A model generated the notes under the pieces. That model saw only the letters and a program-made list of their open reading frames with translations. It made no database searches and was not told where the DNA came from. From IMG/VR virus record IMGVR_UViG_3300019768_000021, positions 1-24,279 of that record: a stretch of DNA of 24,279 bases; one strand, 5' to 3'. Made by a program: the position numbers and the translations under genes. Numbering within the stretch: position 1 is the stretch's first letter; each line of letters begins with the position of its first letter. This stretch comes from a virus. Below are positions 283 through 10,636 of the stretch, piece by piece.

Positions 283-507
283 TTAATTACTGTCAAGTTT
301 TTTAAAAACCTTTTTCATTAAGTCGGTTTGAAATTCAATTGAATATCCATTTTTAACACCCTGTTCTAAATCTCTACCTAATTTTTCGTAATTAATATTT
401 AATTCTTTAAGTACTTCTGACTCTATCTCGTAATAATCTTCTTCACTCATCCAAGACTCTTTAAAAATATCTTTAAATATCTCTTTAGCTTTATTTGTAT
501 AGTTCAT
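283..507 (-). CDS. Hypothetical 74-residue helical protein of the leftward operon
   Basis: I do not recognise this protein. It is small, charged (rich in Lys and Glu) and looks almost wholly alpha-helical, with a short amphipathic N-terminal helix (NKAKEIFKDIFKES) and a second helical stretch ending in MKKVFKKLDSN. It has no signal peptide, membrane segment or metal-binding cysteines. The start at 507 is preceded by the A/T-rich leader typical of this operon, and a 9-bp hairpin (526-553) lies 19 bases upstream of the ATG. It is the leftmost gene visible and is separated from the next gene by about 320 non-coding bases, so it may have its own regulation. A cytoplasmic early or accessory phage function is likely from position only. 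Confidence 0.7.
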   Translation of the reverse strand: MNYTNKAKEIFKDIFKESWMSEEDYYEIESEVLKELNINYEKLGRDLEQGVKNGYSIEFQTDLMKKVFKKLDSN

Positions 508-525
508 AATATTTATTTTTTAGTT

Positions 526-553
526 GCCTATTGTCAATCACTCAACAATAGGC
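526..553 (-). promoter_or_regulatory. 9-bp hairpin in the leader of the 74-residue gene
   Basis: GCCTATTGT (526-534) is perfectly complementary to ACAATAGGC (545-553), with a 10-base loop. In the leftward direction it sits in the 5' leader of the gene starting at 507. It lacks a following T tract on the minus strand, so an RNA-level control element is more likely than a leftward terminator. Read on the plus strand it is followed by a T-rich run, but no gene is seen upstream there. Confidence 0.4.
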
Positions 554-600
554 TAGTTTTTAGTTTTCAGCCCTTTTAAACTAGGTTTTGCTTTTCAGCC
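553..600. repeat. Imperfect tandem 20-base repeat
   Basis: The 20 bases at 553-572 and at 581-600 both begin CTAG and end TTTTCAGCC, differing at three internal positions. They are 28 bases apart. CTAGTTT (553-559) is also complementary to AAACTAG (578-584), so the block can fold. It lies in the leader of the gene at 283-507. Confidence 0.5.
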
Positions 601-825
601 TACCCATAGAGCATAATGTTTTTTATCGTGTATTTTGGCTCACGTTTGCCAACCAATAATCTGTGACGCTTGAACGAGGATTACCTGAACGCTATCTAAT
701 TAAATGGATTTTCAGAAATTTCAATGAACGGTTGTAAGTTTAATTGTAAAATTAGTTATTTATTTAGTTATTAACAACTATTATCTAATTGTTAGTTTCT
801 ATAACTTATTGATAACTAATAAGTT

Positions 826-1113
826 TTATCTATTTACCATTTTAGATCGTTGTAACTTTGTTTTTTTTATGTAGTAATCATCATTATTGAAATACTTTTC
901 GCTTCCTAGTAAATTAAAAAGGGTTGCGTATTTTATTTCCTTATTATTTATGATGATTTTTTCCTTTGCCATTTCTCGAATACTTCCATATATTGCACCA
1001 GAATTGGCTTCACCTTTAATTAGTTTTCTCTTATCAACAAAGATAAAATACTCTTCTTTTTGCATTGTTTTCCCCTCTTTCATTTTTTGTAATTCCTTTC
1101 TTGAGTCTGTCAT
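826..1113 (-). CDS. Hypothetical 95-residue protein of the leftward operon
   Basis: I do not recognise a family. The ATG at 1113 overlaps the TGA of the gene to its right (ATGA), which suggests coupled translation. An alternative start is the internal Met17 (MQKEEYFIFVDKR), after which the sequence looks like a compact alpha/beta domain with the stretch NSGAIYGSIREMAKEK, then a very basic tail (KKTKLQRSKMVNR) that could contact nucleic acid. It has no cysteine motif, signal peptide or membrane segment. The gene is followed by a weak A/T dyad at 803-825 and then by a non-coding gap. The role is unknown; a cytoplasmic phage accessory function is inferred from its place in the operon. Confidence 0.7.
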   Translation of the reverse strand: MTDSRKELQKMKEGKTMQKEEYFIFVDKRKLIKGEANSGAIYGSIREMAKEKIIINNKEIKYATLFNLLGSEKYFNNDDYYIKKTKLQRSKMVNR

Positions 1114-1649
1114 AATAAAATGTTATTTATAATTGCGTTTGTTAGTTTTTTATACTCCTTTTCGGTTATATGTAGTTTTTCGCTATCCTCATTAACTATT
1201 GTTATGTTGTATATCCAAATGTTAGAGTTTAATTTTTCGTGCTCTATTGGGTTATCTTTGTCAAATCCTCCAGACTCTTTGTGCTTTTCCTCAACTTTTA
1301 AATCTAAAGTAACTAAAAAGTTTTTTATCTCAAGCTCTAAACAGTCGTTTTTGTAACTGCCTACATTTACATTATCTATTAAATCCCAGCTATCAAATTC
1401 TATTTCAATCTCAGGAATGTTTTTTATAACGCCTTTTAGCTGTTTTTTACGCTGCTTTTCGGCTTCATATAGTTCGACTATCTCACTATATTTTAGTTCT
1501 TTTTCGGTTGCATCTACAACGTATAATGTTTTTTTGCCCATCTTTAAAGTGTAAAATTTCGTGCCATCCGTGCAATTTGCATTACGTTTACAAAGTTCTT
1601 TAATTTCTTTGTGCGCTTCTTTGTAATTATAAAAGGTTATTTTTTGCAT
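1110..1649 (-). CDS. Hypothetical 179-residue protein of the leftward operon
   Basis: I do not recognise this protein. The N-terminal half mixes short strands and helices and contains a Lys/Glu-rich helix around residues 55-75 (YEAEKQRKKQLKG). The C-terminal half (about 80-155) looks rich in beta strands and ends in a helix (ITEKEYKKLTNAIINNILL). There is no transmembrane segment or obvious catalytic motif. It starts five bases after the stop of the gene at 1655-2026 and overlaps the next gene by four bases, so it is firmly inside the operon. Its length makes it the largest protein of the leftward set. The function cannot be inferred from what is visible. Confidence 0.75.
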   Translation of the reverse strand: MQKITFYNYKEAHKEIKELCKRNANCTDGTKFYTLKMGKKTLYVVDATEKELKYSEIVELYEAEKQRKKQLKGVIKNIPEIEIEFDSWDLIDNVNVGSYKNDCLELEIKNFLVTLDLKVEEKHKESGGFDKDNPIEHEKLNSNIWIYNITIVNEDSEKLHITEKEYKKLTNAIINNILL

Positions 1650-1654
1650 AACTA

Positions 1655-2026
1655 TTAATTTAAATTTTTTAACACTTTATTTAAGTTTGATTTTTCGGAT
1701 AACCATATTAAATTGTCAATCCTTTCATCTAATTCATTTAAAACAAAATTAACATCTGTATTGTGTATATTCAATTTAAACGAATGAGTATTAAAATTAT
1801 CACAACCATTTAAAACAACCTTTTTAAATATGTCTAAGTTAAATTTAGAAGAATCTAAAAACCTCATAAACAAACTACAAAATTTAATTCTTGGTGAATA
1901 TTCAATATTTACATAAACTTCGCCCATAAAAGAATCAAATTTAAATGAGGTGTTATTTTTCTCTTTTTTACAATTGTGTTTTTTACAAATTGCATTAACC
2001 TTTTTATCAAATTCTTTTTTAGTCAT
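1655..2026 (-). CDS. Hypothetical 123-residue protein of the leftward operon
   Basis: No family is recognised. The N-terminus is strongly basic (MTKKEFDKKVNAICKKHNCKKEK) with two Cys residues at positions 14 and 19, followed by alternating hydrophobic stretches (EVYVNIEYS, IKFCSLFMRFLD) and an acidic/amphipathic C-terminal helix (ELDERIDNLIWLSEK). It is cytoplasmic by appearance. The ATG at 2026 comes four bases after the stop of a 40-residue gene to its right, and its own stop is five bases before the next start, so spacing supports one transcript. The basic N-terminus would suit nucleic-acid contact, but this is only an impression. Confidence 0.72.
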   Translation of the reverse strand: MTKKEFDKKVNAICKKHNCKKEKNNTSFKFDSFMGEVYVNIEYSPRIKFCSLFMRFLDSSKFNLDIFKKVVLNGCDNFNTHSFKLNIHNTDVNFVLNELDERIDNLIWLSEKSNLNKVLKNLN

Positions 2027-2030
2027 ATTT

Positions 2031-2153
2031 TTACTTTTTTGTTTGTTGGTTTTTTGCCCAACTGTTAATATAATAACTATTAAATTTATTTGCTTTTCGC
2101 TCTATATCCTGGAGCTTGTTATAAATTAATATTAGTTTATCCTTTTTAAGCAC
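2031..2153 (-). CDS. Short 40-residue basic protein with a GTG start
   Basis: This short frame begins with GTG (complement of 2151-2153) and is easily overlooked. It encodes a basic, helical peptide beginning MLKKDKLILIYNKLQ and ending in a Lys/Gln-rich tail. The frame is open only from the overlap with the gene to its right: the GTG lies eight bases inside the end of the gene at 2146-2292, and the stop is four bases before the ATG at 2026. That tight fit and the protein-like amphipathic pattern (hydrophobic residues every three to four positions) are the main support. Without it a 119-base hole would remain in an otherwise packed operon. No function can be assigned. Confidence 0.5.
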   Translation of the reverse strand: MLKKDKLILIYNKLQDIERKANKFNSYYINSWAKNQQTKK

Positions 2154-2292
2154 AATTTAAAGAATTAATTTCATGTTTCAACATAATGTATTTATACTTT
2201 TTTTCGGCTTTGTAGTTACCGTGTAACTCTTTTAAAATGTCAAATATCCTATTGTCAACATTCTTTTTAACTCGTTTTATGCGTGGTTTCAT
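2146..2292 (-). CDS. Short 48-residue basic protein
   Basis: The frame starts with ATG at 2292, ten bases after the stop of the gene at 2303-2503, and ends overlapping the GTG-start gene by eight bases. The product is strongly basic at the N-terminus (MKPRIKRVKKNVDNRIFDIL) and then helical with a single Cys near the end. The basic, Arg/Lys-rich start would suit binding to DNA, RNA or an acidic partner protein, but no known domain is visible. Position and spacing support it as a real member of the leftward operon. I know of no named family for it. Confidence 0.55.
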   Translation of the reverse strand: MKPRIKRVKKNVDNRIFDILKELHGNYKAEKKYKYIMLKHEINSLNCA

Positions 2293-2302
2293 AATTAGGC
2301 GT

Positions 2303-2503
2303 TTAAGATTCTAATTCATCAATTATATAAGAGTCTGTTAAATCTAAAACTTTTTTAGCTGTTTCAAATTCTTTTTGATCAAATGCACTAACAAATAAAT
2401 CAAAACCAGTGTTAATATTATCTTTGTCAATTTCTAATTCATGAGCCATTAAAAAAGTGGCTTTAAATCTTGTTTCTAATGCGTTAATGTCTGTTTTGTT
2501 CAT
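2303..2503 (-). CDS. Hypothetical 66-residue acidic helical protein
   Basis: The product is acidic and predicted all-helical: a first amphipathic helix (INALETRFKATFLMAHELEI), a turn (DKDNINTG) and two further helices (DLFVSAFDQKEFETAKKVL and SYIIDELES). It has no cysteines, membrane segment or catalytic motif. Small acidic helical phage proteins sometimes bind and inhibit host enzymes, but there is nothing here that names a target. The ATG at 2503 has an A-rich leader (AAACTAAGAACT) and the next gene begins ten bases after the stop. Its neighbours are equally small and basic, which makes the acidic charge stand out. Function unknown. Confidence 0.65.
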   Translation of the reverse strand: MNKTDINALETRFKATFLMAHELEIDKDNINTGFDLFVSAFDQKEFETAKKVLDLTDSYIIDELES

Positions 2504-2524
2504 AGTTCTTAGTTTAAAAGGTTT

Positions 2525-2674
2525 TTATAATTTCTCTAACGATTTGCTCAAAGCTATTTTAATACACATTAATTTTAAATTAATAGAATGATTGAAGTTA
2601 TTTAAATCAATTTTAGAGTAAAAAATACTTCTTAAATGTTTATTTGTCTTTATTTCTTTGTTTAAATCAATCAT
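2525..2674 (-). CDS. Short 49-residue protein of the leftward operon
   Basis: This ATG frame fills most of the gap between the 66-residue gene and the membrane-peptide gene to the right. It begins MIDLNKEIKTNKHLRS and continues with hydrophobic residues at regular spacing (NFNHSINLKLMCIKIALSKSL), which suggests two helices or a helix and strand. It is net basic, with one Cys, and has no clear membrane segment. The start lies five bases after the stop of the gene at 2680-2793, and the next gene starts about 21 bases beyond its own stop. The spacing agrees with the operon pattern; the length leaves some risk that it is chance. Confidence 0.45.
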   Translation of the reverse strand: MIDLNKEIKTNKHLRSIFYSKIDLNNFNHSINLKLMCIKIALSKSLEKL

Positions 2675-2679
2675 TATAA

Positions 2680-2793
2680 TTAAATTAAGTTAACAAATAC
2701 CAGCCCAATAATAAGGATAAACACAATAGTAAATCCTATATTAGTTATTAACGTGGCATTTTTATCTGTGAATAGGTTTTCAATTAGTTTCAT
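2680..2793 (-). CDS. Single-span membrane peptide, 37 residues
   Basis: The ATG at 2793 is four bases after the stop of the gene at 2798-2986. The peptide has a short polar N-terminus (MKLIENLFTDKNATL) and then one long hydrophobic segment (residues about 16-37, with GFTIVFILIIGLVFVNL) running to the C-terminus. This is the layout of an N-in or N-out single-span inner-membrane peptide, without a signal-peptidase site. Small membrane peptides of phages include holin-like proteins and host-interfering or superinfection-related peptides; nothing here decides between these. A second single-span peptide is encoded at the start of the same operon (3647-3772). Confidence 0.55.
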   Translation of the reverse strand: MKLIENLFTDKNATLITNIGFTIVFILIIGLVFVNLI

Positions 2794-2797
2794 AATA

Positions 2798-2986
2798 TTA
2801 TATTAAATTATCGTTTGAAATCCATTTACCGTGCAACTTTCTGGCTACGACTACAGCATTATATCCTACTCGTTTACTTACTACATTATGCTTGTTTATT
2901 GTAGCGTAATTTTTAGCACCTTGAAGCGTTTTAGATGTATCTATGTGACAGCCTTTAAAATCTAATATTCCGTACATTGTAATCAT
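2798..2986 (-). CDS. Hypothetical 62-residue protein
   Basis: The protein begins MITMYGILDF; the second Met (position 4) is an equally good start. It contains the stretch GCHIDTSKTLQGAKNYAT, followed by a basic section and a short strand pattern (YNAVVVARKLHGKW). From memory, similar short proteins with a His-Ile-Asp-Thr-Ser stretch occur in flavobacterial phages and prophages, but I cannot name a family or verify this. It is basic, cytoplasmic, and has no membrane segment. The gene is followed after four bases by a membrane-peptide gene. It is separated from the gene to its right by about 200 bases that hold at most one tiny frame. Function unknown. Confidence 0.68.
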   Translation of the reverse strand: MITMYGILDFKGCHIDTSKTLQGAKNYATINKHNVVSKRVGYNAVVVARKLHGKWISNDNLI

Positions 2987-2996
2987 AATAATATAT

Positions 2997-3077
2997 TTAA
3001 GTTATTTTGTTTTTTAGTTCCTTTGTATCTTTTCGAAAGTAGCATCGTAAAACAGCGTACAAAGGATTCAACTTCAT
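2997..3077 (-). CDS. Possible 26-residue peptide
   Basis: A short ATG frame (MKLNPLYAVLRCYFRKDTKEL...) ends ten bases before the start of the next gene at 2986, matching the spacing used elsewhere in this operon. It is basic, with a single Cys. At this length chance is a fair explanation, and there is no further support. The rest of the gap (3078-3189) has no start-bearing frame and no clear promoter. Confidence 0.22.
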   Translation of the reverse strand: MKLNPLYAVLRCYFRKDTKELKNKIT

Positions 3078-3189
3078 TTGTTAACTTCAAGTTATGTAAT
3101 AAGTCTATTATCTACAGTTTGCAATTAACGTTCAAAACAGTTTAAACACATATTCAGGTGCTCTTACTAATTCAAACCAAAGAATTAAT

Positions 3190-3582
3190 TTAAAAAGCTT
3201 TTAATTCTGTTTCAAACTCTTCTTGCAATTCTTCATCTAAAATACAATCCCAATTATCAGAAATAGTACTAAATTCATTTAACAACTCTTCGCCTAATAT
3301 GTAAACTAACATATTTACTACTTTTTCACTACTTGAAAAGTCCGTATTAACCTCTCCGAAGTTATCTTGTTCATACTCTCTAATCTTTTCAATAGCTGCA
3401 AAGATACCGTAATTAGCTTTTAACCACTCTTCAGCTTGATGATAACCAATAATATAACAATCAGTGTTAAATAATTCGTGATGCAAATCAGATACGTGTT
3501 GATCTAATAAACGACCATCTATTAAAGCGTCTAGTATATGGTTTACTAATTCTTGTTTTGTTGTTGTAGTTAATGTCTTCAT
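3190..3582 (-). CDS. Hypothetical 130-residue acidic protein
   Basis: The product is strongly acidic, especially in its last third (DNWDCILDEELQEEFETEL), and mostly helical. It contains a recognisable central stretch, CYIIGYHQAEEWLKANYG, followed by IEKIREYEQDNFGEV. From memory, proteins with this pattern are common in flavobacterial genomes and their phages and are listed only as a domain of unknown function; I could not check this. The strongly negative charge raises the thought of a DNA-mimic protein such as an anti-restriction factor, but the protein shows no ArdA or Ocr signature that I can see. The start at 3582 has an A/T-rich leader of about 64 bases after the upstream membrane-peptide gene. 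Confidence 0.75.
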   Translation of the reverse strand: MKTLTTTTKQELVNHILDALIDGRLLDQHVSDLHHELFNTDCYIIGYHQAEEWLKANYGIFAAIEKIREYEQDNFGEVNTDFSSSEKVVNMLVYILGEELLNEFSTISDNWDCILDEELQEEFETELKAF

Positions 3583-3646
3583 AATATATATTTTAAAGAT
3601 TTGTTTTGTTTTTAAGATTAGTTAAATTTTGCCCAATGATAAATAA

Positions 3647-3772
3647 TTAATTCATATAAGGAGAAGGAGAAACAACACCATGTATTAAAGCAGCAATACA
3701 AAGTACTACTAATATAGTTAATACAATTAATCTAGGTTTGTTACTTAGTGCTAATGTGATAAAATTTATCAT
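3647..3772 (-). CDS. Single-span membrane peptide, 41 residues, first gene of the leftward operon
   Basis: The ATG at 3772 is the first start after the leftward promoter at 3810-3840, about 30 bases into the transcript. The peptide has a short polar N-terminus with basic residues (NKPRL, residues 11-15), then a hydrophobic span (LIVLTILVVLCIAALIHGVV, about 15-34) and a short tail with two Ser-Pro pairs (SPSPYMN). Positive charges before the span favour the N-terminus inside the cell. As the first gene it should be among the earliest and most abundantly translated. No family is recognised; a role at the inner membrane is inferred from the hydrophobic span alone. Confidence 0.6.
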   Translation of the reverse strand: MINFITLALSNKPRLIVLTILVVLCIAALIHGVVSPSPYMN

Positions 3773-3809
3773 AATATAAAGTTTAAATTGTTTGTCTTAT
3801 TTCTATATT

Positions 3810-3840
3810 CAAATATACATACATATATTAATATATACAA
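3810..3840 (-). promoter_or_regulatory. Leftward promoter of the small-gene operon
   Basis: On the minus strand TATATTTG (complement of 3810-3817) matches the Bacteroidota -7 element TAnnTTTG exactly. TTG (complement of 3838-3840) lies 20 bases upstream, within the normal range for the -33 element. Transcription would begin near 3803, about 30 bases before the first ATG. This is the best promoter for the leftward genes. Confidence 0.65.
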
Positions 3841-3882
3841 CAATAATGTAATATATTTTAATAAATAACGTAATTAGATAAG

Positions 3883-3914
3883 ATAGTATTATAACTATGA
3901 TAAGATAATACTAT
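3883..3914. repeat. Perfect 10-bp inverted repeat (candidate operator)
   Basis: ATAGTATTAT (3883-3892) and its exact reverse complement (3905-3914) are separated by 12 bases, giving a centre-to-centre distance of 22 bases, two helical turns, as for a dimeric DNA-binding protein. The core ATAGTATT recurs downstream of the small terminase gene. Confidence 0.55.
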
Positions 3915-3977
3915 AATGTATGCAAATCAGCCCAATAAGGATAAGAAAACACTATAACACATACAAAGAACAGTACA

Positions 3978-4009
3978 TTTGCTTATCAATAAAATATATA
4001 CTAACTTGC
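3978..4009 (+). promoter_or_regulatory. Candidate rightward promoter of the small terminase gene
   Basis: TTTG at 3978-3981 and TAACTTGC at 4002-4009 are 20 bases apart and partly match the Bacteroidota promoter. The TTTG is itself the end of TACATTTG (3974-3981), a perfect -7 element that has no TTG at a suitable distance upstream. Either reading starts transcription 40-75 bases before the ATG at 4062. Only one promoter is likely to be real. Confidence 0.35.
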
Positions 4010-4061
4010 ATAACTATAAAGAATAACGATAAGCAGCTCAATAGATAAAAAATCATAAGCA

Positions 4062-4589
4062 ATGAATAATAAAAAGAAAACAAAAAAAGATAGTATAAAC
4101 TTTAACAAGATAGGACCTCCTTTTAAATACGAACCTAAAGAACTTGCCCAAAAAATAAAAGAATATTATAAAGAAATAGACGAAAACCCAATAGAAAAAC
4201 GAAAGGTTGAAACAAGCAACAAAGATACGAAGGAAACAATAGAGTATATAAAGAGACCTTACTTGCTTGAAGGCTTATGTAACTACCTAGATATAACTCT
4301 AAAAACGTTTAAAAGTTGGGAAAACAACGAGCAATTACTTCCACTCGTCACACGCGCGAGACAAACAATATACGATAATAAGCTAGAGGGTGCGACTGCT
4401 GGGGTGTTTAATGCCAACATTGTAGCGTTAGACTTAGGCATGGCAAGAAAAGAAGAGCAACAACAATCGGGGTTGCTTATTCCTATCAACGGCAAGGAGG
4501 CAAAGGCTATCCTGCAAAGTTTAAGCAACGAATATGGAACATTGCCAGAGGTTAAAACGATTGACATTGAAGCTGAAGATGTTGAATAG
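4062..4589 (+). CDS. terS: Terminase small subunit
   Basis: The small terminase recognises phage DNA at its packaging site and hands it to the large subunit. This 175-residue protein has a basic N-terminus (NNKKKTKKDS), a P-P-F-K-Y segment with a helix (residues about 20-40), then a helix-turn-helix-like stretch (PYLLEGLCNYLDITLKTFKSWE, about 66-87) resembling the DNA-binding part of the gp3-type small terminases, in which a 'pick the program of a first-helix, then a W/Y-E' pattern is usual. A second conserved stretch follows (ARQTIYDNKLEGATAGVFNANIV in two parts, about 97-122). The C-terminus is acidic (EAEDVE) and may touch the large subunit. Length fits the family. It is unusually far (about 1.7 kb) from the large-subunit gene. 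Confidence 0.85.
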   Translation: MNNKKKTKKDSINFNKIGPPFKYEPKELAQKIKEYYKEIDENPIEKRKVETSNKDTKETIEYIKRPYLLEGLCNYLDITLKTFKSWENNEQLLPLVTRARQTIYDNKLEGATAGVFNANIVALDLGMARKEEQQQSGLLIPINGKEAKAILQSLSNEYGTLPEVKTIDIEAEDVE

Positions 4590-5038
4590 GGGTAATATAG
4601 TATTAGTATGTGCTAATCTGCACACGGTGGAGACAAAATATATCGCTGAAATAGTCTAATAATGGTATTATATTAACTTAAACGATACAATTTAAGTATA
4701 TATAGTATTAATGTGGTTCGGTCTGGAGTCCTAAAACGTTTAGCCGATACGATCAAAGATGTAAAGGTTGTGCAAATCTAAGCCAAATAATAAAGCAATC
4801 TAAATAATATACAAATCAATATTACATCATAGATAAAATAGTATTGTTGTTCCGTATCTTAACTCTGAATGAGTCAATGTATAATTAGTGAAGCCCCATT
4901 TTGAATATATAAAAGACTATTATTAAACACCCCTAACCCCCACGAGGCGAAACACCATGCCCTTTCCCTACCATCAAAATTTTTTACCAAAAATATGAAA
5001 TTAAACTTTTTCTTGTTGTGGCGGTGTCAAATAACGTG
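4590..5038. other. Repeat-rich non-coding stretch after the small terminase gene
   Basis: No gene is supported in these 449 bases. They contain three copies of ATAGTATT (4597-4604, 4702-4709, 4838-4845), a hairpin TGTGC/GCACA (4609-4624), a 7-bp dyad ACTTAAA/TTTAAGT (4676-4697), and a bulged hairpin made of TCGG (4718-4721), CTAAA/TTTAG (4731-4743) and CCGA (4744-4747). From about 4928 the sequence turns C-rich and then, past about 5014, G+T-rich. Being next to the small terminase gene, it is the natural place for a packaging (pac or cos) site. Confidence 0.45.
4597..4845. repeat. Dispersed ATAGTATT motif
   Basis: Exact copies begin at 4597, 4702 and 4838 on the plus strand. The first two extend to ATAGTATTA. 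The same core forms the inverted repeat at 3883-3914 in front of the gene. Near copies occur at 4663 (ATGGTATTAT) and 5749. The spacing is irregular, so this is not a tandem array; a protein-binding site is more likely. Confidence 0.45.
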
Positions 5039-5158
5039 ATGTGGCTGATTTTGGTGTGTTTTACGGTTGTTTCGTGTATTTGGCGGTGTGTTTGTATGGT
5101 TTGGTGGTGCGAAACGTTGAGAATGGCTGAAAAATGTCGCCGATTGCTTTCGCAATGA
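5039..5158 (+). CDS. Possible 39-residue Cys/Trp-rich peptide in a G+T-rich island
   Basis: The ATG at 5039 (or GTG at 5036) opens a frame whose TGA overlaps the ATG of the next gene (ATGA at 5155-5158), the usual sign of coupled translation. The product begins MWLILVCFTVVSCIW, a hydrophobic span, and continues with many Cys and Trp residues and a basic tail. However, T- and G-rich DNA gives exactly such Cys/Trp/Val-rich translations by chance, and the same frame stays open upstream to about 4942 with no good start. I lean slightly towards a chance frame in a non-coding packaging or control site. Confidence 0.35.
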   Translation: MWLILVCFTVVSCIWRCVCMVWWCETLRMAEKCRRLLSQ

Positions 5159-5427
5159 ATAAAATACTGAGGTTGTGGCGAGAAAGTCAGGTTAATATTT
5201 TGTTGGTATTGGTATTATGGTTATATTTGATGTCTATGACCTACAAGCGTAAAGGAAAGGTAAATACATTTCCTTTAGATAGAGAGATTGAGTTAGTGGT
5301 TACTAAGGGAGATAAATGTTTTAAGAAGGTGATGACGTATGATAAAGCTTTGCGTTGGGCGAAATTACCTGGTTATCGTTACCAATATTGTGAGGTTGGT
5401 TTTTGTTCATTAAAAGAAAATATATAG
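5155..5427 (+). CDS. Small membrane-anchored protein, 90 residues
   Basis: I choose the ATG at 5155 because it overlaps the preceding stop; an in-frame ATG at 5134 would add seven residues. The N-terminus (MNKILRLWRESQ) carries positive charges and is followed by one hydrophobic span (VNILLVLVLWLYLMSM, residues about 13-28). A basic stretch (TYKRKGKV) and a soluble domain with three Cys come after it (KCFKKVMTYDKALRWAKLPG, CEVGFCS). This suits an inner-membrane protein with one anchor. Phage proteins of this shape include holins and spanin subunits, but no family was recognised and lysis genes are not usually found between the terminase genes. The following gene begins two bases after its stop. 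Confidence 0.6.
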   Translation: MNKILRLWRESQVNILLVLVLWLYLMSMTYKRKGKVNTFPLDREIELVVTKGDKCFKKVMTYDKALRWAKLPGYRYQYCEVGFCSLKENI

Positions 5428-6107: not shown

Positions 6108-6267
6108 TTTTAAAACAAGAAAAAGTTTAGATATTAAAATACGTGCTAATGCACTTAAAAATGGAGATGAATTTGCAAAGAAAACATTCATTGCATTAAG
6201 AAAAGATGATACTTGTTGGAGAAGGTTTTTAAGATTCTTTAGAATAATTCCACCTCAAAAAATATAA
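6100..6267 (+). CDS. Hypothetical 55-residue basic protein
   Basis: The ATG at 6100 lies inside the end of the previous gene (eight-base overlap), and its TAA shares one base with the start of the large terminase (TAATG), so translation is probably coupled. The product is strongly basic (MSSFKTRKSLDIKIRANALK and a tail RRFLRFFRIIPPQKI), with one Cys-Trp pair. A basic protein beside the packaging motor gene could bind DNA, but there is no recognisable fold. The short length leaves modest doubt. Confidence 0.58.
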   Translation: MSSFKTRKSLDIKIRANALKNGDEFAKKTFIALRKDDTCWRRFLRFFRIIPPQKI

Positions 6268-7694
6268 TGGCTGGATTAACTGAGCAAGAAAAGAATAGGT
6301 TAAGAGTTATAAAACATAGGGCTGAAAATAGTTTTATGTTTTTTTGTATGTATTTATTTAAGGAAAACAACAATATAAAGTTTTTACCATATAAGCATTT
6401 ATTATTAATTTCAGAGAAGCTTGAAGCTATTGCTAGAGGCGATTTGAAACGCTTAATAATTAATATTTTTCCTCGTAGTGGTAAAACAGAGATGGCTGTA
6501 AAGTTATTTATAGCTTGGGGATTGGCACTTAACCAACGTTCAAAGTTTATTCATTTATCATATTCTGGTGATTTAGCAATTGACAATTCTGCTATGGCTA
6601 AAGAATACATAAATTCGGAGGCTTTTCAAAAGATTTGGAAAATGGATTTGCGTATTGATTCAAAAGCGAAACAAAAATGGTTTAATAAACAAGGTGGTGG
6701 ATGTTATGCAACTTCTACTAATGGTCAGATTACAGGTTTTGGTGCTGGAGATACAGTAGCAAGACAAACAAAAGACTTCAAAGGTTTTAGTGGTGCTATT
6801 ATTATTGATGACCCTAATAAACCAAGTGATACTTTTTCTGACACAGAGCGTAATAAGGTAAATATGCGTTACAATAACACAGTTCGCTCAAGGATAAATA
6901 ATCCACGAGAAACACCTATCATCGTCATTCAACAAAGATTACACGAAGATGATTTAAGTGGATTTTTATTGAATGGTGGTAGTGGTGAGGATTGGGAGCA
7001 TTTAAACTTACCTGCATTGGATGAAAACAACGTACCTCTTTGCCCTGAGAAATTTACTTTTGAAGAGTTGGACAGTTTAAGACAAGCAGATCCATACACT
7101 TTTAATGGTCAATATATGCAAAGCCCTACCCCTGGAGATGGTGGAATGTGGATGAGGCATTGGTTTAAAAGTAAATTATTAGCTGAAATTCCAAGAATAG
7201 ATAGTTGGCAACTATACATAGATGGAGCTTACACTAAGAATACTGCAAACGACCCAACAGGTTTAATGATATGTGCTAAGAGTGATGAAAATCTATATGT
7301 TTTGTCTGCTGTTTCTAAGTATATGGAAATGCCAGAGTTGCTTAAATATATTCCTCAATATATAAACAGTTTAGGTGTATATGTTGATAGCGTTCTAATA
7401 GAGCCTAAAGCAAGTGGTTTATCTATGGCTCAACTTTTAAGAAATCAAACAAACTACAATGTAATTGAACTTAGGGGTAAAATTTTAAGGGAGAGTAAAA
7501 TTGAAAGAGCTAGTAAAGCATCTACATATATAGAAAGTGGAAAGGTTTTCTTAATTCAAGGAATTTGGAACGAACCATTTTTAGAACAAATATCTAAGTT
7601 CCCATTGGCTAAACACGACGAATACGTAGATTTACTTTCTTATGCTATTGATAGAGATTTATTCAAGCGAAGTGTAGCTAAAATAATTTGGTAA
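6267..7694 (+). CDS. terL: Terminase large subunit
   Basis: This is the DNA-packaging motor: an ATPase that drives DNA through the portal, joined to an RNase H-like nuclease that cuts the concatemer. The 475 residues show both parts. Walker A is FPRSGKTE (68-75), Walker B with the catalytic acidic residue region is GAIIIDDP (176-183), and the coupling segment is IVIQQRLHEDD (219-229). The nuclease half has candidate metal-binding acids in YIDGAY (Asp319), LIEPKASG (Glu379) and AKHDEYVDLLSYA (Asp455), in the expected order. The length is normal for the family. It follows three tiny genes with translational overlap and is followed by a 73-base gap before the portal gene. Confidence 0.96.
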   Translation: MAGLTEQEKNRLRVIKHRAENSFMFFCMYLFKENNNIKFLPYKHLLLISEKLEAIARGDLKRLIINIFPRSGKTEMAVKLFIAWGLALNQRSKFIHLSYSGDLAIDNSAMAKEYINSEAFQKIWKMDLRIDSKAKQKWFNKQGGGCYATSTNGQITGFGAGDTVARQTKDFKGFSGAIIIDDPNKPSDTFSDTERNKVNMRYNNTVRSRINNPRETPIIVIQQRLHEDDLSGFLLNGGSGEDWEHLNLPALDENNVPLCPEKFTFEELDSLRQADPYTFNGQYMQSPTPGDGGMWMRHWFKSKLLAEIPRIDSWQLYIDGAYTKNTANDPTGLMICAKSDENLYVLSAVSKYMEMPELLKYIPQYINSLGVYVDSVLIEPKASGLSMAQLLRNQTNYNVIELRGKILRESKIERASKASTYIESGKVFLIQGIWNEPFLEQISKFPLAKHDEYVDLLSYAIDRDLFKRSVAKIIW

Positions 7695-7767: not shown

Positions 7768-9408
7768 ATGACTTTTACTGACGAACAAGCGATTGAATTA
7801 ATAAAAGAAAAACAACATCTAAGTCCTGAGATAACTAAATTAAGGAATGATTCAAAAGAATTATATGCTTTGATTGAGGGTGATATGTTTAAAGAAGAGT
7901 TAATTTCTAAGATTGAGCATATTGAGGGTGAGAAAAAAGCTAAAGCACGTAAAAAGTATTCAAGAGATGTTCAAGATTTCTTTGAGAGGTTATTTCAACC
8001 TATTGATAATATTTCTTATGCAACTGGAGGTAATAAAGTTTATGATATTGAAAACGAAGAGGTAAAAAGATTATTTTTAAAGCAGATTGATAATATAAAA
8101 GACAGTAATACATTACAACATTGGGTTATGAATGTTGGAATTAAGCTTAGACACGTTGATCCTAATGGATTAATGTTTATGGAATATAGAACTAGCCCTA
8201 AAACTGAAATTTACCCAACATATAAAAGTATAAATGATATTAGGTGTTACGAAAGGAGAGGTCAATTATTAGAATGGCTACTTTTTGAGCCTTCTATGAT
8301 TGATGAGAAGGAACATTTTAGATTTGTTGATGATTCTGCTGATAGAACATTTAAAAAAGAGGGGGAAACATTTATTTTAGTAGAATCAATGTCTTTTGAG
8401 CATCCTTTTGATGAAGTTCCTGCAATTATAAACTCAAATTTAGTAAAAGTAGGTAAGGATTATAGAATTTCTGATATTACACCGATTTTAGGACTGTCAA
8501 AGGAGTATGCTCGTGACCAATCAATTAAAACTATCTATAAATTCTTACAAGGTTTCCCTATTCATTGGAGATATGTTACAGAATGTGATGATTGTAAAGG
8601 TACTGGAAAAGGGAGTAAAGGAGAATGTAATAAATGTGATGGTAGAGGATTCTTGCAAAAATCTGATGTTACAGATATAGTTACTTTACCAATTCCAACA
8701 CAAGATACACCTGTAATTCCAGAGATTGCTGGTAATATAACTCCAAATTTAGACACATGGACTCAATACAATGATGAATTGAATACATTTGAGAAAGTTG
8801 CATTTAGAACTTTTTGGGGTACTTTGCAAGGATTAGAAGAATCTATTGGAGGTCGTAAAACAACTACTGAAGTTATATTCAATAAGCAACCTATTGAGAA
8901 TAGGCTTAATAAGTATGCTGATTATGCAGAATTTGTAGAATGGAAAATGTCTAATTGGATTTTAGACTTTTATGATAGAAATGAAAAAACAGAAAACAAG
9001 GTAGTTATAAAATATGGTAGAAATTATGTAATTGAACCTAGTGACACTATTTTAGCTCGTTATGAAGAGGCAAAAGGTAAACAAGAGAACGATGTAGTTT
9101 TAGACGAGTTATTCAAACAATATCTACAAGCAACTTACAGGACTAACCCAATCGAGTTAGAAATAAATATTAAGAAATCAGAAATTGAGCCATATTTACA
9201 CCAAGTATTAAAAGATGTATTTGATATTTTTGGTCAAGAAGAGGCGCAAAGAAAAGTATTATTTGGTAAATGGTGGAATACATTAATGATGTCTGATTAT
9301 TTAAAGGATAAAGAAACATTAGAGAATGAATTTAATACGTGGTTTAATAAGAACAAGAAAGTTGTTATTGAGCCTAAAGAAAAATCGGCTGATGGTCAGC
9401 TAAGTTAA
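7768..9408 (+). CDS. Portal protein with inserted four-cysteine motif
   Basis: The portal forms the dodecameric ring at one head vertex, through which DNA enters and leaves and to which the terminase and connector dock. The call rests on position (directly after the large terminase, before scaffold and capsid), on length (546 residues, normal for portals) and on a helical, acidic composition with a C-terminal charged tail. Residues 273-294 hold two CxxCxGxG units (CDDCKGTG at 273-280 and CNKCDGRG at 287-294), the pattern of the DnaJ cysteine-rich region, which would bind one zinc ion. They sit mid-protein, followed by a Pro/Thr-rich segment (about 303-330) and a helix-rich region with IGGRKTTTEV, which may belong to the tunnel-loop area. 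No sequence family could be checked. Confidence 0.82.
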   Translation: MTFTDEQAIELIKEKQHLSPEITKLRNDSKELYALIEGDMFKEELISKIEHIEGEKKAKARKKYSRDVQDFFERLFQPIDNISYATGGNKVYDIENEEVKRLFLKQIDNIKDSNTLQHWVMNVGIKLRHVDPNGLMFMEYRTSPKTEIYPTYKSINDIRCYERRGQLLEWLLFEPSMIDEKEHFRFVDDSADRTFKKEGETFILVESMSFEHPFDEVPAIINSNLVKVGKDYRISDITPILGLSKEYARDQSIKTIYKFLQGFPIHWRYVTECDDCKGTGKGSKGECNKCDGRGFLQKSDVTDIVTLPIPTQDTPVIPEIAGNITPNLDTWTQYNDELNTFEKVAFRTFWGTLQGLEESIGGRKTTTEVIFNKQPIENRLNKYADYAEFVEWKMSNWILDFYDRNEKTENKVVIKYGRNYVIEPSDTILARYEEAKGKQENDVVLDELFKQYLQATYRTNPIELEINIKKSEIEPYLHQVLKDVFDIFGQEEAQRKVLFGKWWNTLMMSDYLKDKETLENEFNTWFNKNKKVVIEPKEKSADGQLS

Positions 9409-9423
9409 TTTAAAACAATTATT

Positions 9424-9837
9424 ATGAGTACAACAATGGTAGTGTGTAACATCTACGAGTTATTAAAAAGAGGTAAGGAATTTACCAAAGAAGGAAAAGT
9501 GTTAAAAAGGTCTAATTCAGTTATAACAAGGGATTGGGCTGACGAAAAAAACAATGATTGGAAAAATTCTGGTCTATGGTTTGAAATAGATGATGAAAAG
9601 ACATCGGAATATTACAAAAAAGGTGAGTTAAAACGTCAAATGCGTAAAGAGGCAGAAGATAAAAAGAATAAACTTACTGAAATGGCAAGTAATATGCTTG
9701 ACAATGCAAGTAAAGTTATTGAATTAGATGAAGATGTTGATGAATTAATTAGATTGAAAGCTGAATATAAAGAGCAGTTCGGTAAAAAACCATTTCATAA
9801 ATGGGGTATTGATGAATTAACCGAAAAACTTAAATAA
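9424..9837 (+). CDS. Small head-module protein, 137 residues
   Basis: It lies between the portal and scaffold genes, with gaps of 15 bases before and one base after. The N-terminal part has mixed strands (VVCNIYELL, SGLWFEIDDE), and the rest is a long charged helix (EYYKKGELKRQMRKEAEDKK and on). The C-terminus (ELIRLKAEYKEQFGKKPFHK and WGIDELTEKLK) resembles the small helix-loop-helix (SAP/HeH/Rho-N-like) ends seen in various phage structural proteins, in which G-K-K-P-F/x-x-W-x-x-x-x-L is typical. Such a domain could bind nucleic acid or a protein partner. A head-assembly or minor structural role follows from position only. Confidence 0.6.
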   Translation: MSTTMVVCNIYELLKRGKEFTKEGKVLKRSNSVITRDWADEKNNDWKNSGLWFEIDDEKTSEYYKKGELKRQMRKEAEDKKNKLTEMASNMLDNASKVIELDEDVDELIRLKAEYKEQFGKKPFHKWGIDELTEKLK

Positions 9838-9838
9838 G

Positions 9839-10636
9839 ATGGCTTTAGAAAACATACAAGAAATAGAAAAAGCATTAGGTTTAGAAGAAGGTAAATTTAA
9901 TGAGATAATTACGAGTGAAGAAAATCATTCAATAGATATTAGTGGTTTATATATATCAAAAAAATCTGACCACGATGCTTTAACAGAAAACCTTAAAAAA
10001 ACATATCGTCAAGAAGGTGTTGAGGTAGCTGTTAAAACTGCAAGAAATGAATTAGGATTAGAATTTGAAGGTAAGAAAACTCTTAAACCATTATTAGAGG
10101 CTTATGCCAAAAAGATTGAAAATGATGCTAAGATTGAGCCTAATGAAAAATACGATACATTAAAAGTAGATTTTGAAAAAAGAGGAAATTTAATTACCGA
10201 ATGGGAAGAAAAGTATAACGACCTACAATCTAACTTTAAACAAAAAGAAAGCCAAAGAACTATTGACAACACCTTGTTAAAAGAAATACCAGGTAACACA
10301 TCAATTCCAAAAGATGATATATTAGCTATTCTTAAATCTAAATATGATTTTAACGTTGGAGAAGATGGTTTTGAAATCATAAAAGATGGTCAAGTTCAAA
10401 AAAACGATGCTAACATGAACTTACTTACTGCAAAGGAGTTTATGACTACATTTATAAATCCATATCTTAAAAAAGTTGATGGTGGTGCTGGTGGTGATGA
10501 CTCTAAAAGTGGAGGTAAAGAATCATCACTAGACGTTTTTAATAAACGTATGGAAGAAAAAAGTGTCAATATAGGTAGTGAGGCATATAATAATGAAATG
10601 TCTAAAGCTATTAAAGATGGAACATTGAAATTTTAA
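9839..10636 (+). CDS. Probable scaffold protein
   Basis: A scaffold guides capsid subunits into a shell of correct size and leaves before or during packaging. This 265-residue protein sits immediately before the capsid gene and has the usual character of scaffolds: no cysteines, very high charge, long helical and coiled-coil stretches (about 40-145, including LKVDFEKRGNLITEWEEKYN), and a flexible Gly/Asp/Ser linker (about 214-228, GGAGGDDSKSGG) before a short C-terminal helical segment, which in scaffolds often binds the capsid. No protease catalytic motif is visible, and no separate prohead protease gene is present nearby. A terminator follows directly, separating it from the capsid gene. 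Confidence 0.7.
   Translation: MALENIQEIEKALGLEEGKFNEIITSEENHSIDISGLYISKKSDHDALTENLKKTYRQEGVEVAVKTARNELGLEFEGKKTLKPLLEAYAKKIENDAKIEPNEKYDTLKVDFEKRGNLITEWEEKYNDLQSNFKQKESQRTIDNTLLKEIPGNTSIPKDDILAILKSKYDFNVGEDGFEIIKDGQVQKNDANMNLLTAKEFMTTFINPYLKKVDGGAGGDDSKSGGKESSLDVFNKRMEEKSVNIGSEAYNNEMSKAIKDGTLKF

Follow-up and report, generated by a model that had tools for sequence, protein, structure and literature searches.

Does a row of very small genes without recognised function encode real proteins, and what would a phage use such a row for? The question is raised by positions 2031 to 3772 of the IMG/VR virus record IMGVR_UViG_3300019768_000021, the whole of which (24,279 bases) was analysed and is called the window here. 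The window belongs to an AT-rich tailed phage, with terminase genes followed by structural genes rightward; from 3772 down to its left end the window is occupied by a leftward row of minus-strand genes. An initial annotation had pointed to five short frames of 40, 48, 49, 37 and 41 residues in this row, one of them with a GTG start; all five lie on the minus strand exactly where it placed them, the GTG start being that of the 40-residue frame. Comparison with three related contigs (L083, L097 and L090) shows that the 41-, 37-, 48- and 40-residue frames are selected as proteins, as judged from their substitution patterns, and that single genes are exchanged between them. The recurring genes are called the backbone and the places of exchange slots A to D. 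The features of the row are as follows.

3817-3810, minus strand: Bacteroidota-type -7 promoter element TATATTTG at the operon head, fitting TAHHTTTG
3647-3772, minus strand: 41-residue single-span membrane peptide, backbone gene
3190-3582, minus strand: 130-residue acidic, all-helical protein, slot A cassette
2987-3189, minus strand: non-coding spacer with a tRNA-3′-half-like or hairpin element
2798-2986, minus strand: 62-residue small alpha/beta protein, common to the window and L083
2680-2793, minus strand: 37-residue single-span membrane peptide, backbone gene
2525-2674, minus strand: 49-residue frame, putative gene, slot B cassette, no relative
2303-2503, minus strand: 66-residue acidic protein, slot B cassette
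2146-2292, minus strand: 48-residue basic protein (isoelectric point 9.9), backbone gene
2031-2153, minus strand: 40-residue basic protein (isoelectric point 10.0), GTG start, backbone gene
1655-2026, minus strand: 123-residue orphan, slot D cassette
283-1649, minus strand: orphans of 179, 95 and 74 residues, remainder of the leftward operon

Coding status and expression of the tiny frames

The minus strand between 2031 and 3772 holds 9 open reading frames (ORFs) of at least 35 amino acids, which cover 88% of the stretch as against 1.71 ORFs and 13% coverage in dinucleotide shuffles, and this density was reached in 0 of 500 shuffles; ORFs on the plus strand over the same stretch are at shuffle level. 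Substitutions were compared in a set of four IMG/VR contigs, i.e. the window and its three relatives, of which L083 was found by a large-terminase search (terminase 93% identical), L090 with a profile of the 48-residue protein and L097 with the DNA pattern of the intergenic element. Profile scans with the 41- and 48-residue proteins gave no contigs further to these three, and there is no near DNA match to the window among 50,697 phage records. The ratio of nonsynonymous to synonymous substitution rates (Ka/Ks) of the window against L083, L097 and L090, respectively, is 0.04, 0.08 and 0.10 for the 48-residue gene and 0.42, 0.39 and 0.69 for the 41-residue gene. Against L083 and L097 it is 0.22 and 0.23 for the 37-residue gene and 0.34 and 0.19 for the 40-residue gene, and it is 0.17 for the 62-residue gene, for which L083 is the sole comparison. 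On simulating neutral change for the pairs of the window with L083 and L097, the number of changes being matched to that observed, the observed amino-acid identity was reached in 0-0.8% of the runs, except for the 40-residue gene against L083 (6.6% of runs). Also, insertions and deletions in the 37- and 48-residue genes are of whole codons, and the stops or frameshifts in related phages by which the initial annotation had proposed to judge its frames were seen in none of the frames with relatives (41, 37, 48, 40 and 62 residues) in L083, L097 and L090. The earlier view that the short frames are real genes is therefore borne out for four of the five by synonymous bias, the 49-residue frame being without relatives.

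It could be argued that the short frames are chance ORFs in AT-rich DNA, as codon usage does not clearly separate all of them from shuffles. With usage learnt from the structural genes and each frame scored against 1000 shuffles, support was obtained for the 66-residue frame (0 of 1000) and the 41-residue frame (5 of 1000) but not for the 37-, 40- and 48-residue frames (394, 456 and 150) or the 49-residue frame (96); the 179-, 95- and 74-residue orphans gave 0, 33 and 0. As codon usage fails for the 37-, 40- and 48-residue frames, it is the synonymous bias that supports them. The same bias, together with the shuffle test of ORF density, speaks against chance ORFs, and long ORFs are rarer, not commoner, in AT-rich DNA. 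We therefore regard this explanation as highly improbable; it is largely refuted for the four frames, though not for the 49-residue frame, which is missing from the same junction in L083 and L097 and whose coding status is unproven.

The tight packing described earlier holds for the block 2031-2986, where the GTG start of the 40-residue gene overlaps the 48-residue stop by 8 bases (2146-2153, GTGCTTAA) and the other genes are 4, 5, 10 and 21 bases apart, but not above 2986, where 203 bases separate the 62- and 130-residue genes and 64 bases the 130- and 41-residue genes. Likewise, the hydrophobic patterns that had been called regular are confined to the 41- and 37-residue frames (hydrophobic window 2.95 and 2.86), each with one clear membrane span.

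At the head of the row TATATTTG fits TAHHTTTG, the -7 element consensus described for the primary sigma factor of Bacteroidota (PMC6847099). The element is present at the corresponding site in L083 and L090, and in L097 it precedes a 52-residue gene that lies ahead of the 41-residue gene. By itself the motif is weak, being present in 39 copies in the window, and we have therefore placed the weight of the promoter case on conservation upstream of the 41-residue start. Here 87 of 90 bases are identical in L083, which is above the DNA identity of the genes (100/126 in the 41-residue gene, 145/189 in the 62-residue gene and 1189/1428 aligned columns in the large terminase). Among viral contigs the exact promoter sequence was found in the contig of L083 only, and the minus strand between 2031 and 3647 has no TAHHTTTG except at 3406, within the 130-residue gene. 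The promoter that the initial annotation called perfect thus stands as an element of Bacteroidota type with a conserved upstream region. A sigma-70 scan gave only a chance number of sites (36 vs 35.7).

It may be noted that 11 of the 12 starts of the row, including that of the 49-residue frame, have an A at -3; for ATG starts the figure is 10 of 11 as compared with 21 of 51 other minus-strand ATGs (p 0.003). This start context is one described for Flavobacterium johnsoniae (PMC6847099). Since a search for relatives of the window large terminase in bacterial genomes gave none that could be confirmed, the host is placed only by promoter type, start context and composition, and is presumed on these sequence features to be a member of Bacteroidota. 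The promoter at 3817 would then give one early message, translated without Shine-Dalgarno sites from starts with A at -3, and translation of the 40-residue gene may be coupled to the 48-residue stop. The stretch from operon promoter to small terminase also has two near-identical 17-base repeats (TATAGTATTATCTTATC and TATAATACTATCTTATC) at 3893 and 3915 (3877-3916), of which L083 retains one; they are possible binding sites of the terminase or of a regulator.

Backbone genes and exchanged cassettes

The backbone has the order promoter, 41, 37, 48 and 40. The 41- and 48-residue genes are present in all three relatives, and in L090 these are the only backbone genes visible before the contig end region. 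Four slots differ in content and have conserved edges among L083, L097 and L090; their content, with that of the position after the spacer, is as follows.

Slot A (after 41): 130 residues in the window; 184 in L083; 63 and 159 in L097; none in L090
Position after the tRNA-like spacer: 62 residues in the window and L083; 56 in L097; in L090 the 48-residue gene follows directly
Slot B (37 to 48): 49 and 66 residues in the window; a single gene of 82 residues in both L083 and L097; leader TTTAAACTnAGAACTATG in common
Slot C (48 to 40): no gene in the window or L097; 74 residues in L083
Slot D (after 40): 123 residues in the window; 51 in L097; 57 and 51 in L083; leader AACCAACAAACAAAAAAG kept

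The overlap of the GTG start of the 40-residue gene with the 48-residue stop is shared by the window and L097, and in L083, where the 74-residue gene intervenes, the start is ATG. Alignment of the rows shows that cassettes have been inserted, removed or replaced as single genes at exact gene boundaries, with the same short leaders reused. Where the initial annotation saw the likeliest place in the window for an undescribed system, the row looks more like a set of single genes exchanged independently of each other than like one system. Relatives of the 159-residue slot A protein of L097 carry the annotation 'Restriction alleviation protein lar', for which Pfam finds no such domain, and the name was not used. 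In L097, positions 1-218 and 4948-5341 are 99.5% and 95.7% identical to L083, most other matching stretches being lower; this may come from exchange in the recent past between phages in the one sample, or from an effect of the assembly.

The boundaries themselves carry repeats. ATTGGGCAAA is repeated at gene-row boundaries at 3637 of the window (minus), at 2162 and 1499 of L083 (minus) and at 3418 and 3711 of L090 (plus). It borders slot A on both sides in L083; the empty slot A of L090 has a single copy, which is what excision between direct repeats would leave. Insertion at AT-rich repeated leaders such as AACCAACAAACAAAAAAG, together with the unclear coding signal of the 49-residue frame, would also suit a selfish or neutral turnover of ORFans, i.e. 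a region prone to recombination in which small genes of little function come and go. Such turnover is however at odds with the purifying selection seen in the backbone (Ka/Ks 0.04-0.42 for the window against L083 and L097), and we think it an improbable account of the row.

The spacer at 2987-3189 is conserved in L097 (1026-1215), shortened in L083 (1428-1558) and represented by its 3′ part only in L090 (3711-3757), where this half lies directly behind the 41-residue gene. It has the stem TCCTTTGTA/TACAAAGGA, a hairpin z of -3.84 in the window, and a tRNA-T-arm-like hairpin CAAAGTTCGANTCTTTG that is not intact in the window, where the acceptor-like stem TCCTTTG/CAAAGGA is retained despite a diverged middle. 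With introns allowed, Aragorn reads the L097 spacer as a tRNA-Gln with a 100-nt interruption (score 132) and gives weak forms only for the window and L083; an Rfam scan of the spacer has no tRNA match, and we do not claim a tRNA. A short peptide within the spacer is not claimed either, as the window and L097 differ by a single-base shift in the middle. A search of bacterial genomes with the exact pattern of the 3′ element found no copy.

The row lies next to the packaging genes of the window:

4062-4589: small terminase (PF16677)
6267-7694: large terminase (PF17289)

It is divergent from the small terminase in the window, L083 and L097; in L090 the row and the small terminase are on different strands with further genes between. 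The large terminase of the window and L083 has no match to that of L097 or of L090, nor do the latter two match each other; the small terminase of L097 matches none of the others. This indicates that the operon travels with different packaging genes. Further along the window, residues 269-294 of the putative portal protein (7768-9408) form a DnaJ-like CXXCXGXG zinc-finger stretch (PF00684, E 1.1e-4, under the curated cut-off), and L097 has nine tRNA genes in a row (9133-10351) inside its packaging-structural region.

Fold resemblances and possible roles

Searches of the operon proteins against Pfam, NCBIfam and PADLOC gave nothing convincing. The larger genes, taken for orphans earlier, are so only in part: the 66-residue gene has no relatives in viral contigs or phages, but PHROG 10208/12228 takes in the 130-residue protein and PHROG 7744 the 62-residue protein, both being phage families without assigned function. 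In viral contigs 95 stretches are related to the former family, of which 80 were kept, and it is present in 87 phage records, mainly of Enterococcus and Lactococcus. Its alignment takes in 41 of the 59 distinct sequences that were located, the window protein among them and none dropped afterwards, and all 41 are acidic, with net charge from -7 to -23 (median -16); the window protein has -20 and T7 Ocr -28. Its model has a predicted local distance difference test score (pLDDT) of 92 and a predicted template modelling score (pTM) of 0.83. Foldseek gave three matches to it in BFVD at E 0.001, none with known function. On aligning the model with 202 Foldseek candidates by VIA-align, T7 Ocr (8zek_B) came first with Z 4.5, a value under the tool's meaningful level (93 of 116 residues, root mean square deviation (rmsd) 3.9), and the second had 3.1.

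A search at E up to 1 finds the 62-residue family in 76 phage records. Five AlphaFold2 (AF2) models of the window protein have pLDDT of 86.5, 84.5, 64, 57 and 54, two of them being good; the best, made from 3 sequences, has pTM 0.70 and the order beta-beta-alpha-beta-beta-beta. Among 997 candidates VIA-align placed AcrF9 (6vqv_A) first with Z 5.2, again under the meaningful level (55 of 68 residues, rmsd 2.6, 20% identity), and the second at 3.1. AcrIF9, as described, has 68 residues, which form one helix and a sheet of five strands (PMC7264359; PMC7714069). That both top PDB matches are phage counter-defence proteins is suggestive for these models, an observation made post hoc and without a control. 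As family names both were rejected on sequence: for Ocr by the lack of a Pfam ocr match and by the profile comparison given below, and for AcrIF9 by the sequence search.

We favour, with somewhat better than even confidence, the reading that the leftward row is an accessory operon used in host interaction. The promoter type, its place at the start of a divergent row and the mosaic exchange agree with an early accessory operon. A role in counter-defence proper is held to be less likely than this. The host take-over or anti-defence role proposed in the initial annotation is consistent with the mosaic exchange, the acidic 130-residue family and the two low-scoring fold resemblances, though it finds no sequence homology. 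On such a role the cassettes might serve host take-over and counter-defence, the acidic 130-residue protein could inhibit a DNA-binding host defence in the manner of a DNA mimic, the 62-residue protein could be a small binder, and both membrane peptides might act at the inner membrane.

A number of results weigh against this reading. Foldseek found no PDB match at E 0.001 for either model, and by the guide that comes with the tool unrelated folds often give Z values such as 4.5 and 5.2. A sequence search for the AcrF9 chain with 3- and 5-sequence profiles gave none at E up to 10. Pfam ocr (PF08684) is absent for the 41 members among the matches listed (25 of 28 families), the window protein having no families, and T7 Ocr as a control matches that model at 1.3e-64; also, hhalign of the 130-residue profile against Ocr relatives gave a probability of 0.2-0.3%. 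The 130-residue family has 12 invariant residues, which exceeds the need of a pure charge mimic, and the slot A replacements are not uniformly acidic (+1 and -1 in L097, -26 in L083). PADLOC, as said, has no convincing match in the operon; L083 and L097 share one metagenome; and the Ka/Ks of the 41-residue gene against L090 is a weak one.

The lack of matches to defence or anti-defence families, the basic 48- and 40-residue proteins and the two single-span membrane peptides would also suit an accessory cluster for replication or lysis timing without a counter-defence role, in which the small basic proteins bind nucleic acid and the membrane peptides regulate lysis or block superinfection. Fast single-gene exchange is however less expected of core replication or lysis genes, and no operon gene matches a replication or lysis family; we consider this explanation unlikely, yet one to be kept in mind. 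Rather doubtful is the most far-reaching form of the counter-defence idea, namely a portable locus of Bacteroidota phages with a four-protein frame, anti-defence genes exchanged at fixed slots beside the packaging genes, an Ocr-like DNA mimic of a many-host family, a protein of AcrIF9 fold and a tRNA-3′-half-like element that marks the main slot.

For the 130-residue family at large, the large terminase was recognised in 16 of 76 loci, in 10 of these 16 upstream and divergent; as the loci are short and partly redundant, the position beside the packaging genes is treated as weak. A count of small terminases near the family (24 loci) may contain false matches and was not used. In marine phages (loci L002-L081) gamma-glutamyl cyclotransferase is among its neighbours in 14 of 76 loci and amidoligase in 12 of 76, both named via PHROGs from one example each.

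Relation to known phage loci

T7 gene 0.3 enters the cell first. If a packaging site lies within 3772-4062, this would place the operon close to a genome end, from where it could likewise enter first. The T7 early region resembles the row in that a small acidic helical protein (Ocr) is encoded close to the start of a small-gene operon, with a weak fold resemblance; the 130-residue family differs in being widely conserved in sequence without sequence or profile homology to Ocr. The 62-residue model is like AcrIF9 in size and in one helix on a five-stranded sheet, but there is no sequence match, Z is low and no type I-F target is known.

Rows of exchangeable ORFans are already known in phages, as described for the ORFanage of cyanophage S-PM2 and the shuffling in T4-type phages (PMC4503421). 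These hyperplastic regions are likewise rows of small genes without homologues, in which cassettes are gained and lost beside conserved phage genes, with PeSL-mediated shuffling (PMC4503421). The phage type differs, and the cassettes here are bounded by short AT-rich leaders and by one tRNA-like spacer; the early promoter and stem-loop described for each PeSL cassette are not what the window operon has. In cultured phages, homologues of the 130-residue protein lie among small hypothetical genes in Lactococcus phage 949 and Saphexavirus, and those of the 62-residue protein in Redjac/Chi-like phages. These arrays are of other hosts and phage types, and no shared backbone genes were seen in the stretches read. 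As exchangeable ORFan rows are known and the relatives of these two proteins lie in rows of small genes, the operon belongs to a known type, the phage ORFan cassette operon. What is new here is the resolved order of backbone and slots and the selection evidence on four tiny genes; a literature search, little of which was aimed at phages of such hosts, found no description of the operon.

Tiny phage genes are usually omitted from annotations, and the comparison made here separates the backbone from the exchanged genes. If the slot genes are counter-defence proteins, more of them could be collected by reading between the conserved slot edges, and the 130-residue family, being present also in Enterococcus and Lactococcus phages, would be testable in ordinary laboratory strains.

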